This document shows, in pieces, positions 2,189 through 62,713 of a stretch of 64,000 nt of DNA. The translations under genes were made by a program, and so were the position numbers. Numbering within the stretch: position 1 is the stretch's first letter; every line of letters begins with the position of its first letter. This DNA comes from Isoptericola dokdonensis DS-3 (GTDB lineage Bacteria > Actinomycetota > Actinomycetes > Actinomycetales > Cellulomonadaceae), in assembly GCF_001636295.1 (NCBI RefSeq), contig NZ_CP014209.1:1674001-1738000 (forward strand), written 5' to 3'. The notes below the pieces were generated by a model, which saw nothing but the letters and a program-made list of their open reading frames with translations, had not been told where the DNA came from and made no database searches.

Positions 2189-2226
2189 CACGAGGCCCCG
2201 CATCGATGACGATGCGGGGCCTCGTG
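2189..2226 (+). terminator. Perfect 17-bp hairpin, terminator after whiB-type gene
   Basis: Arms 2189-2205 and 2210-2226 are perfectly complementary (CACGAGGCCCCGCATCG and its complement) with a 4-nt loop. The hairpin is 38 nt beyond the WhiB stop. There is no clear T-tract, which is common for actinobacterial terminators. It lies between convergent genes, so it may act on both strands. Confidence 0.75.
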
Positions 2227-19223: not shown

Positions 19224-19330
19224 CCGGGGTGCGGGGTCGTCCTGCCGCGAGACGTCCGCTCGGCCACTCGTCCCTCGCGGCCTCCTGCCAGGCCCAGCCG
19301 GTCTCGCGGCAGGACAACCCCGCACCCCGG
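19224..19330. repeat. Long inverted repeat: 30-bp arms, 47-nt loop
   Basis: Arms 19224-19253 and 19301-19330 pair with one mismatch. The loop is GC-rich and differs from the conserved loop found in the elements at 38.0, 38.3 and 62.6 kb, though the overall build (about 30-bp stem, 40-50 nt loop, just after a stop codon) is alike. It starts 23 bp after the nitroreductase stop. May be a terminator, or part of a wider repeat family. Confidence 0.75.
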
Positions 19331-29626: not shown

Positions 29627-29670
29627 TGCGACGAGGGCCCGTCCGCTGCGGCGGACGGGCCCTCGTCGCA
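29627..29670. terminator. Perfect 20-bp hairpin between LLM gene and acpS
   Basis: Arms 29627-29646 and 29651-29670 are exactly complementary with a TGCG loop. It sits 18 bp after the LLM stop and 20 bp before the acpS stop, so it likely terminates both convergent transcripts. Confidence 0.85.
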
Positions 29671-37498: not shown

Positions 37499-37909
37499 AT
37501 GAGCGACGACACCTCCGCCACCCGCCCCGACCCCGAGTGGGGCGCCGAGGGCGACACCGACCAGCTGCCCCACGAGGACACCCTGGACGACCGGGGGACG
37601 CGCGACCTGCTCGACGAGGGCTACTCGCCGCCCGAGCGCCCCCGCAAGAACCACTGGGGCGAGACCGCGTGGGAGGAGTCGGCCGGCGAGCCGCTCGACC
37701 AGCGTCTCGCCGCCGAGGAGCCGGACGAGTGGGACGTGCCCGACCGTCCCTCGGACGCCACCCGCGCCGGCCGGCTCGTCGAGGACGACGACGCGGACCC
37801 CGGGGCCGACGGCGGCCGCTCGAACGACCTGTACGGCACCGACGCGGGCGTCGACGGCGCCGGCGCGACCGCGGAGGAGGCCGCCGTCCACTGGATCGAG
37901 GAGCCCTGA
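37499..37909 (+). CDS. DUF5709-like hypothetical protein
   Basis: A 136-residue acidic, soluble protein with no signal peptide or membrane span. The core LLDEGYSPPERPRKNHWGE and GEPLDQRLAAEEPDEWDVPD resembles the actinobacterial DUF5709 family from memory; no function is known for it. The C-terminus (GGRSNDLYGTDAGVD, then AAVHWIEEP) also fits. Start ATG at 37499 follows a GTAGAGAG purine tract. It is followed by the repeat-rich region at 37.9-38.4 kb. Confidence 0.75.
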   Translation: MSDDTSATRPDPEWGAEGDTDQLPHEDTLDDRGTRDLLDEGYSPPERPRKNHWGETAWEESAGEPLDQRLAAEEPDEWDVPDRPSDATRAGRLVEDDDADPGADGGRSNDLYGTDAGVDGAGATAEEAAVHWIEEP

Positions 37910-37914
37910 GCCGT

Positions 37915-37990
37915 GTGGCGGTGACGGCGGCTGAGTGGCGGTGACGGCGGCTGAGTGGCGGTGACGGCGGCTGAGTGGCGGTGACGGCTG
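37915..37990. repeat. 20-bp tandem repeat, 3.8 copies
   Basis: GTGGCGGTGACGGCGGCTGA is repeated exactly at 37915, 37935 and 37955, followed by a partial copy to 37990. The partial copy runs into the left arm of hairpin element A1. The word differs from the nearby CGAGTCAGCGC array, but the 20-bp period is the same. Confidence 0.95.
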
Positions 37991-38082
37991 GGGGTGGGGT
38001 TCCGGGCGCGGTCGCGCTCACGGGCCCCAGGGGGCCCTCCGCTTCCGGTCTGACGACCGCGCCCGGAACCCCACCCCCAGCC
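37986..38082. repeat. Conserved-loop hairpin element A1
   Basis: Perfect 29-bp arms (37986-38014 / 38054-38082) enclose a 39-nt loop. Read on the minus strand the loop contains GGAAGCGGAGGGCCCC and GGGGCCCGTGAGCG and is 34/39 identical to the loop of A2. An inner GGGCCCC/GGGGCCC hairpin sits in it. The stem closes with GTCG/CGAC. It follows the DUF5709-like gene. Confidence 0.93.
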
Positions 38083-38110
38083 TTCGCTCTCGTCGCCTGG
38101 CCGCTCCACG

Positions 38111-38201
38111 CGAGTCAGCGCTCGCCGGCGCCAGTCAGCGCACATCGGCGCCAGTCAGCGCACATCGGCGCCAGTCAGCGCACATCGGCGCGAGTCAGCA
38201 C
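38111..38201. repeat. 11-bp word array, locus 2 left part (five copies)
   Basis: CGAGTCAGCGC or one-mismatch variants start at 38111, 38131, 38151, 38171 and 38191, exactly 20 bp apart. The three middle copies are identical CCAGTCAGCGC units with the same 9-bp spacer. The same word and spacing occur between tsaE and tsaB. Confidence 0.93.
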
Positions 38202-38246
38202 GGGCGCCGGTGACGTCACCGGACGACGCCCGACCGCATCGCCGAA

Positions 38247-38341
38247 GGACGGCGGAGGGTGCCGCGCGTCGTCGTCAACCCCGAAGTGGAGGGCCCCCTG
38301 GGGCCCGTGAACGCGACGACGCGCGGCACCCTCCGCCGTCC
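38247..38341. repeat. Conserved-loop hairpin element A2
   Basis: Perfect 28-bp arms (38247-38274 / 38314-38341) around a 39-nt loop containing CCGAAGTGGAGGGCCCC and GGGGCCCGTGAACG on the plus strand. The stem sequence is unrelated to that of A1 except the closing GTCG/CGAC. It lies 108 bp beyond the truA stop, in the same orientation relative to truA as A1 is to its upstream gene. Confidence 0.93.
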
Positions 38342-38373
38342 GGAACCCGACGCACGCCGACTGAACGAGGTTC

Positions 38374-38424
38374 GCGCTGACTCGCCGCACCCTGCGCTGA
38401 CTCGCGCCGACGTGCGCTGACTCG
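38374..38424. repeat. 11-bp word array, locus 2 right part (three copies)
   Basis: GCGCTGACTCG starts at 38374, 38394 and 38414, exact copies 20 bp apart and inverted relative to the left part. Together the two parts flank element A2. Confidence 0.93.
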
Positions 38425-38449
38425 CGTCGAGACCTGCGACCCCGCGGGG

Positions 38450-39364
38450 TCAGCGTGGTGGCGCGACCTCGTCGGCGGAGCGGCGAGCGCGGATGCGGGT
38501 GGCGCGGGCGGCGAGCTCGTCGTCGGGCGGGTAGTCGACCTTCTCGAGGGTGAGCCCGCGGGCGGGGGCGACCGCGGCCGCCGCGGAACGGTTCCGACCG
38601 GCGAGGACCTCCGCGGGTGCCTCCGGGCCGCGGCGCCCCTCCCCCACGGCGAGGGAGATGCCGACGAGGGCACGCACCATGGAGTGGCAGAACGCGTCCG
38701 CCACGACGGTGGCGACGACGAGCCCGGCGTCGGGCCCCGCGTCGGGGCGCTCCCAGGTGAAGCGGCTGAGCTCCCGGATGGTGGTGGCGCCGTCACGGGG
38801 CTTGCAGAACGCGGCGAAGTCGTGGAGGCCGAGCATCGGCTGGACCGCGGCGTCCATCGCGGCGGCGTCGAGGGGACGGCGGTTCCACAGCACCCACTCC
38901 CGGCGGAGCGGGTCGCGCAGCGCGTGGTCGTCGGCGATGCGATAGCGGTAGGTGCGGGCGGCGGCGGAGAACCGGGCGTCGAACCCGGCGGGTGCCTCGG
39001 CGGCACGGTGCACGACGACGTCGGGCGGCAGGACGCCGGCGAGGCGGTCGACGAGCGCACGGCCGGGCTCCCGGTCGGACCGGCCGGGCAGCGCTTCCCA
39101 GGGGCCCCGCGGCACGTCGACGTGGGCGACCTGGCCGCGGGCGTGCACCCCGGCGTCGGTGCGGCCGGCGACGGTGAGGCGGGGGGCCGCGGCCCCGGTG
39201 GGCCCGCTGCGCAGCACGGTGGCGAGGGCGTCCTCGAGGACGCCCTGCACGGTGCGCAGGCGCGGCTGGGCGGCCCAGCCGGCGAAGTGCGTGCCCGCGT
39301 AGGCCAGGTCGAGCCGCACGCGGACGTCGTCGGGTGCCGGGCCGTCCGGCGTCGGGGTGCTCAT
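38450..39364 (-). CDS. truA: tRNA pseudouridine(38-40) synthase TruA
   Basis: Modifies U38-U40 in the anticodon stem-loop of many tRNAs. It has 304 residues. The catalytic Asp is D70 in AGRTDAGVHARGQVAH. DLAYAGTHFAGWAAQP, FDARFSAAARTYRYRI and DAFCHSMVRALVG are the other TruA motifs. GACAAT is 6 nt before the ATG. In many actinobacteria it sits right after rplQ; here a ROK protein and a hydrolase lie between. Confidence 0.95.
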   Translation of the reverse strand: MSTPTPDGPAPDDVRVRLDLAYAGTHFAGWAAQPRLRTVQGVLEDALATVLRSGPTGAAAPRLTVAGRTDAGVHARGQVAHVDVPRGPWEALPGRSDREPGRALVDRLAGVLPPDVVVHRAAEAPAGFDARFSAAARTYRYRIADDHALRDPLRREWVLWNRRPLDAAAMDAAVQPMLGLHDFAAFCKPRDGATTIRELSRFTWERPDAGPDAGLVVATVVADAFCHSMVRALVGISLAVGEGRRGPEAPAEVLAGRNRSAAAAVAPARGLTLEKVDYPPDDELAARATRIRARRSADEVAPPR

Positions 39365-62461: not shown

Positions 62462-62596
62462 AGGGTGGGACGCCGGCCGTCCTGTGACGTCCGTCGCCCA
62501 CCCCGTCGAGCGGTCGGTGGGAGCACCGCTCCCCCGCCGCCCAGAGCCGTCCCCCGGCGGTCGCGCCGGAGGACGGCTGTGAGGTGGGACGGCGAC

Positions 62597-62699
62597 GGCG
62601 CGGGGGGACCCGCCGTCCGACCGGTCGTGCGCTCTCCCGAAGTGGAGGGCGCGAAGCGCCCGTGAACGCGACCGGTCGGACGGCGGGTCCCCCCGCGCC
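62597..62699. repeat. Conserved-loop hairpin element A3
   Basis: Perfect 31-bp arms (62597-62627 / 62669-62699) enclose a 41-nt loop containing CCCGAAGTGGAGGGC and GCCCGTGAACG on the plus strand. These parts are identical to element A2 while the inner hairpin (GGGCGC-GAA-GCGCCC) and stem differ. The stem closes with GTCG/CGAC as in A1 and A2. It lies 14 bp after the rpoC stop and may be its terminator. Confidence 0.93.
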
Positions 62700-62713
62700 G
62701 CACCGAGAAAGGA

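Follow-up and report, generated by a model that had tools for sequence, protein, structure and literature searches.

Two genes of Isoptericola dokdonensis DS-3, truA and a gene encoding a DUF5709 protein, converge on a junction that holds two long hairpins, A1 and A2, with different arms around nearly the same loop. What kind of unit are they, and what keeps the stems paired while their sequence varies? A sequence-only reading of the locus had proposed selection on a folded RNA or extruded DNA, with a specialised terminator, an RNA stability element or a protein-recognised cruciform as candidate roles. We analyzed the pair in its window (the whole 64,000-nt stretch of contig NZ_CP014209.1 under study), in the genome and in related genomes. 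We lean towards the view that A1, A2 and a third copy, A3, belong to a dispersed, non-autonomous palindromic element that was co-opted at gene ends as a transcription stop, and whose stems are kept by template switching together with selection.

Two Hairpins of the Window Share a Loop Core

A1 and A2 proved to be perfect 29- and 28-bp hairpins with loops of 39 nt, as claimed, and taking the minus strand of A1 gives 34 matching loop bases out of 39 and five differences (Table 1). Their arm sequences differ; the description of the stems as unrelated is too strong, however, because the arms agree at 18 of 28 positions. The A1/A2 loop pattern (≤3 mismatches) occurs twice in the window, and no occurrence is expected from 100 dinucleotide shuffles. 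Predicted folding of A1 and A2 was far below that of dinucleotide shuffles on both strands, whether as RNA (z −8.7 to −10.2) or as DNA (z −9.9 to −10.9). A1 lies 76 nt past the DUF5709 stop codon (plus-strand gene) and A2 108 nt past that of truA (minus-strand gene), and in both cases the strand carrying the GAAG motif is antisense to the nearest gene. The copy apparently called A3 by the sequence-only reading is ∼14 nt off the 3′ end of a minus-strand gene, and the inner helix common to A1 and A2 differs there.

Table 1. Position and make-up of the hairpins, adjoining genes and repeat arrays of the window.
Feature	Position	Strand	Description
Plain hairpin	2189-2226		perfect 17-bp stem, 4-nt loop, in a convergent junction
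Family B hairpin	19224..19330	+	30-bp stem (one mismatch), loop of 47 nt CTCGTnCCTCGC...CTCCnGCCAGGCC, in a convergent junction
Plain hairpin	29627-29670		perfect 20-bp stem, 4-nt loop, in a convergent junction
DUF5709 gene (Pfam PF18970)	37499..37909	+	3′ end adjoins A1
Short-repeat array	37910-37985		∼20-nt repeats, flanking A1/A2
Element A1	37986..38082	-	29-bp perfect stem, 39-nt loop, GAAGC class, motif strand minus
A1 arms	37986-38014 / 38054-38082		29 bp, zero mismatches
A1 loop	38015..38053	-	TCAGACCGGAAGCGGA-[GGGCCCC CT GGGGCCC]-GTGAGCG, as minus strand
Short-repeat array	38083-38246		∼20-nt repeats, flanking A1/A2
Element A2	38247..38341	+	28-bp perfect stem, 39-nt loop, GAAGT class, motif strand plus
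A2 arms	38247-38274 / 38314-38341		28 bp, zero mismatches
A2 loop	38275..38313	+	TCAACCCCGAAGTGGA-[GGGCCCC CT GGGGCCC]-GTGAACG
Short-repeat array	38342-38440		∼20-nt repeats, flanking A1/A2
truA, tRNA pseudouridine synthase (PF01416)	38450..39364	-	3′ end adjoins A2
Element A3	62596..62700	+	32-bp perfect stem, 41-nt loop, core as in A1/A2, inner helix GGGCGC-GAA-GCGCCC

The short-repeat arrays are built of ggtgacggcggctgagtggc and GCGCTGACTCGC units, and similar ∼20-nt units were seen beside many other copies in the own genome (G000) and in genome G010. Tandem repeats of roughly 13-20 nt start at the outer end of the right arm in copies L302, L313 and L298 (G010) and in A1; those of L302 and L313 resemble the right arm, as if copied from the stem by slippage.

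The Element Is Multicopy and Found in One Family

Further genomic copies had been expected, and the element is indeed multicopy. The own genome (3.83 Mb) holds 34 copies by the corrected loop pattern, with no match to the reversed pattern used as a control, and 57 matches to a covariance model (model R1, E ≤ 0.01). Each of the 18 genus genomes sampled contains copies, and the covariance model found them in 39 of 200 genomes and 7 of 25 genera of the own family. The samples of the order (396 genomes) and class (394 genomes) were searched at E ≤ 1e-5, under stricter filters and with scoring limited to 10 candidates per genome; 9 and 2 genomes, respectively, had matches, every one from the own family, and at such strict thresholds weak or diverged copies beyond this family could be missed.

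A scan of genome contigs with the DNA pattern returned at least 117 stretches. Among the 80 matches listed, the 38 with a long hairpin all came from Promicromonosporaceae genera (Isoptericola, Krasilnikoviella, Promicromonospora, Puerhibacterium, Xylanimonas and Myceligenerans), and the 42 without one came from other or unnamed taxa, bar one from Isoptericola BMS4. A phage vector was considered and rejected: the DNA pattern occurs in 12 viral stretches, and the stem in none of them. Against Rfam, a check named by the earlier reading, no match in the window reached a gathering score; at E ≤ 10 the A1-A2 region gave 19 matches, mainly to microRNA models, which were all below gathering and chance-like, and Rfam homology was discarded. 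Literature searches returned nothing on "palindromic element" in Isoptericola and, for Promicromonosporaceae with "palindromic", nothing related by title.

Stems Are Conserved as Pairs and the Core on One Strand

A set of 177 copies was assembled from those matching the core pattern with at most one substitution, three of 180 with stems shorter than 21 bp being dropped. The near-invariance of the core in this set is partly by construction, because the pattern selected the copies. As a check, the 18 of the 57 own-genome model matches that lie outside the set were read without the pattern (pattern-free copies).

The general layout is A, stem (mostly 28-32 bp), loop (38-42 nt), stem, G, over ∼90-106 bp, and the loop contains an inner helix of about 6-8 bp. 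Stems measured 28-32 bp in 154 of 179 copies and total length was 90-106 bp in 170 of 177, so that the unit has the terminal inverted repeats and short size of a MITE. The A immediately 5′ of the stem (68-82%) and the G immediately 3′ (68-75%) are conserved alike in intergenic and in-gene copies.

The loop core reads CC-S-GNAGY...GTGARCG around the inner helix. Among the 177 pattern-selected copies, the head tetranucleotide is GAAG in 140 and GTAG in 12, and GGAG also occurs; upstream of it stand CC (166 and 177 of 177 at the two positions) and a single C or G. Loop positions Y5 and R-3 covary (T-A in 147 copies, C-G in 26, C-A in 4). The inner hairpin, taken earlier for part of a fixed loop, instead varies with compensation across the family (36 distinct inner stretches among 177 copies). 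In the pattern-free copies GTGARCG is retained in 18 of 18, although the model used rewards it, and YGGAG is replaced in 12 (GCGCAGG in 8, TGGCAGG in 3, GGGGAGG in 1). Their usual inner helix is GGTCGC-GCA-GCGACC; 17 have a stem of 25-32 bp and one a stem of 16 bp. Within L416-L432 of the own genome, the subclass with the GCGCAGG core and this inner helix, which the loop pattern missed, makes up much of the remaining own-genome model matches.

The stems covary, as had been anticipated. Among 58 aligned copies, two-sided changes were found at 27 of 28 outer-stem pairs; pairing holds in 97.4% of cells, against just 37-50% in slid controls. Cells with two-sided covariation numbered 525 vs. 124 in shuffles (0 of 500 shuffles as high), and wobble pairs made up 81 of 5252 stem pairs. 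The 36 arms of own-genome copies have a mean identity of 60%, vs. 36% after per-arm shuffling, and therefore the stems are related and drifting. The long stems are thus conserved as pairs and not as sequence, and the core is conserved on one strand.

Among 22 listed own-genome rows, paralogous copies match to the stem ends or slightly past in about half. In the remaining rows the similarity breaks off within the stem, in many cases symmetrically to left and right, so that the outer half seems to drift fastest. Two copies of genome G008 (L343 and L344) share ∼178 nt before the stem and 88-115 nt after it (81% identity), and a larger unit may therefore have been duplicated in that genome.

Most Copies Lie at Gene 3′ Ends, With a Fixed Orientation at Convergent Junctions

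Genomic contexts were taken from a codon-usage gene finder written for the analysis, not from annotation. By this finder, the 177 copies divide into 106 convergent, 39 tandem and 2 divergent intergenic copies, 29 within ORFs and one of undetermined context. For 101 of the 106 copies at convergent junctions, the closer gene is the one that the motif strand opposes as antisense (binomial p 3e-24); median gaps to the two genes are 35.5 and 152 nt. The pattern-free copies comprise 13 convergent ones (11 obey the orientation rule), 4 tandem (3 and 1 by orientation) and 1 in an ORF. The placement at gene 3′ ends with a set loop orientation, read earlier from A1 and A2, thus extends to both sets of copies.

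These positions might be those of clade-specific intrinsic bidirectional terminators, whose loop would bind a termination or RNA-processing factor and which would have spread by ordinary duplication. We regard this explanation as unlikely, though worth serious attention. A GC-rich stem shortly past the stop codon (median 35.5 nt, convergent junctions) is the arrangement of an intrinsic terminator, and the fixed orientation at 101 of 106 convergent junctions agrees with it. In the window, each of the four convergent junctions that exceed 20 nt has a long hairpin (two plain, one of family B, one the A pair), so that other hairpin kinds fill the places where A is missing; by comparison, none of the five junctions of 20 nt or less has one, and hairpins scoring ≥12 occur at 9 of the 60 junctions between tandem genes and at 0 of the 9 between divergent ones. 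However, tandem-gene copies show no orientation bias (19 "++" vs. 20 "--" in the main set), which weakens a terminator role. The U-tract appears weak as well: on the complement strand, U occupies the first three positions after the stem in 71, 37 and 26% of convergent copies (68, 17 and 24% of in-gene copies), and the enrichment, confined to the first 2-3 positions, hardly amounts to a proper U-tract.

The two plain hairpins of the window are possibly ordinary bidirectional terminators. The family B hairpin belongs to a second dispersed set, built on similar lines but around another conserved loop sequence. Among the 18 genomes of the genus, G013 has 20 matches to the family B pattern, G010 has 6, and the own genome and G014 have 2 each; the other 14 have none. 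Most inspected rows of family B had 20-33 bp stems that differ between copies, and the rest were short or interrupted.

Copies Also Reside Inside Protein Genes

The 29 in-gene copies, found in either orientation, belong to six gene families: HrpA-type helicase (11), GcvP (7), an alpha/beta hydrolase-AMP ligase fusion (6), an RNase H/AAA protein (3), a PfkB-type kinase (1) and a glycosyltransferase (1). Translations of seven of them have no internal stop. In one HrpA linker compared across the family, the element (by core pattern) is present in 2 of 30 loci and the linker length is a multiple of 3 in 30 of 30. A pure terminator or 3′-end RNA stability element, two of the roles first considered, does not account for these copies, and a strong terminator within a gene would truncate the protein.

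In L239 and L256, from two other genomes, the same HrpA linker encodes VVEPVETTP-like stretches, which may represent a different palindromic in-frame insert. A pair of GTAG-class copies spaced by 1.6 kb in the own genome was considered as transposon ends; they are really two copies within one hrpA-type gene.

In two proteins the loop is inverted between loci that share the coding site, namely HrpA L036 vs. L014 and hydrolase-ligase fusion L037 vs. five others. Template switching is described as homogenising arms and inverting spacers (PMC8604942), and these inversions correspond to the second signature reported there.

Site Comparisons Reveal Patchy Presence and Compensated Stem Changes

At the truA 3′ site the element is present in 2 of 16 genomes with downstream sequence, the own genome and G010, each with two elements. 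Among the 14 genomes without it, 4 have another hairpin with a 12-23 bp stem, in line with a terminator at this junction, but 10 have no hairpin scoring ≥12, contrary to what a terminator role leads one to expect.

Between the own genome and G010, 23 site pairs were compared, and the 21 with arm identity ≥0.7 were counted. Of their stem pairs, 464 are unchanged, 44 show compensated double changes, 29 are changed on one side only and 4 differ in other ways. Transversion-type changes, which are unreachable through G-U, account for 26 of the 44, so that arm-to-arm template switching also fits; it is described as a process that creates and maintains hairpins (PMC8794818). The inference from varying but paired stems to selection therefore stands in part: pairing is kept, but selection alone is not required. 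In three of the 23 pairs (L291/L024, L303/L008 and L308/L017), two of them within the 21, the element is inverted relative to the flanking genes, and these may be independent insertions. In the 19 pairs free of this problem, arms are 90%, the core 92% and the adjoining 30 nt 36% identical (ungapped). Three aligned junctions of the two genomes offered no clean empty site, their flanks being too diverged to define a target duplication, and the analysis found no transposition event, target duplication, parent element or mobilising gene.

Could mutation alone suffice, with GC-rich inverted repeats kept perfect by template switching and with neither function nor recognising factor? Signs of arm homogenisation and spacer inversion, and the direct repeats that abut several stems, are what such a process would leave. 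It predicts, however, long dispersed hairpins without a conserved loop, and families A and B contradict this prediction. The conserved loop core (GTGARCG throughout the pattern-free copies, with the reservation made above), the bounded stem length and the non-random position and orientation also speak against it, and we find a purely mutational origin very improbable.

The GNAG head suggested a RAYT-type (Y1 transposase) REP element. GAAG, GTAG or GGAG ahead of a GC-rich imperfect hairpin, in many copies that are mostly intergenic, recalls such elements. A search for the Y1 transposase domain PF01797, positive in E. coli and 4 other genomes (5 of 14 control genomes), gave, however, 0 of 18 in the genus and 2 of 58 relatives overall, both in other families. 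The published head is given as GT(A/G)G vs. GAAG in most copies here, and the REPs tabulated in the same source are without the additional outer variable stem of 28-32 bp (PMC2817692). A RAYT-type origin is largely refuted by the PF01797 result, and we give it next to no credence. As far as Y1 transposases go, this search also speaks against an IS-end origin, which the earlier reading had named as a refuting match.

Stem Mismatches Are Asymmetric Between Strands

In the 177-copy set, stem mismatches read on the motif strand comprise 73 G-T, 30 A-C and 52 other distinct events. The excess of G-T over A-C has p 3e-5 if events are independent, and the copies, being related by descent, are not fully so. 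The pattern-free copies gave 9 G-T, 1 A-C and 1 other. By context, G-T : A-C ratios are 45:13 in convergent copies, 8:1 in "++" and 10:6 in "--" tandem copies, and 14:6 in antisense and 2:4 in sense in-gene copies. Symmetric mutation predicts equal numbers, and the fold of the motif strand, as RNA or single-stranded DNA, therefore seems to be the selected form. Because at convergent junctions this strand is antisense to the nearest gene, the hairpin in the mRNA of that gene is not obviously the selected form, a further point against terminators.

The motif strand might be a transcribed structured RNA, antisense or 3′-derived, that binds a dedicated protein, in which case the repeats would be RNA genes. 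Wobble tolerated on one strand and conserved internal-loop nucleotides between two covarying helices are typical of structured RNAs. Wobble pairs are nevertheless scarce in the stems, transversion-type changes are the larger class of double changes, and in-gene copies occur in either orientation; the idea appears improbable to us.

Comparison With Known Systems

Integron attC sites lie at gene 3′ ends and conserve structure over sequence, and they are recognised as a folded strand, the one antisense to the neighboring gene. By description, the element resembles attC in structure and position, and its motif strand may be recognised in like manner, but its copies also occur inside genes. Rickettsia palindromic elements (RPE) are described as ∼150 bp long, encoding conserved peptides and lying in frame within protein genes (PMC10969869). 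The likeness, again by description, is that of a small dispersed palindrome also found in frame inside ORFs; unlike RPE, the present element has drifting paired stems and a conserved loop core, sits mostly at gene 3′ ends and has an actinobacterial host.

SPRITE of Streptococcus pneumoniae, found with a sequence HMM, is reported in 30 copies in the genome described, each an 18-bp duplex with a U-rich tract behind it, and is proposed there to comprise co-opted terminators (PMC3049150). Both elements are terminator-like, with an unusually long stem near gene 3′ ends, but the stem here is mostly 28-32 bp, is conserved as pairs and is followed by hardly any U-tract. In the intrinsic terminators of Bacillus cereus, stem pairs are reported to switch while the hairpin is kept, those shared by convergent genes being more constrained (PMC5381666). 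Compensatory switching of stem pairs is common to both, whereas the available text of that study describes no common loop or dispersed repeats.

Discussion

Presence at the compared sites is patchy, the preference for gene 3′ ends is strong, and orientation at convergent junctions is fixed. The defined unit, its patchy presence and its positions at gene ends and in protein linkers point to a small selfish palindromic element, which is probably RPE- or SPRITE-like and mobilised in trans by a putative enzyme. The orientation rule at convergent junctions, together with the hairpins in all wide convergent junctions of the window, suggests co-option as a transcription stop. Mobility and termination are both what we infer from these arrangements.

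For the co-opted palindromic element that we prefer, the following course may be envisaged: (i) a mobilising or binding factor would recognise the motif strand folded as single-stranded DNA or RNA, perhaps as a protein-recognised fold; (ii) copies would spread as selfish DNA and persist where harmless, at gene ends and in protein linkers; (iii) those at convergent junctions would be co-opted as transcription stops, keeping each transcript out of the neighboring gene; and (iv) mutations in one arm would be copied onto the other by hairpin template switching, and selection for the fold would purge broken copies, so that the stem sequence could drift while pairing stayed near-perfect.

More tentatively, the loop core on a folded single strand may be the substrate of an undescribed, non-Y1 enzyme or binding protein of Promicromonosporaceae. 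Families A and B could then be two specificities of one new class of hairpin-recognised mobile elements, in which only structure and loop are inherited and the stem sequence is free.

The element provides a natural set of well over 100 long hairpins whose stems evolve in place, in coding and noncoding DNA of related genomes, and with which the shares of template switching and selection in the upkeep of perfect stems are directly testable. It is also an example of a small dispersed unit that finds its way into protein linkers and gene ends. Should there be a protein that recognises it, this would be a new actinobacterial hairpin-binding factor.
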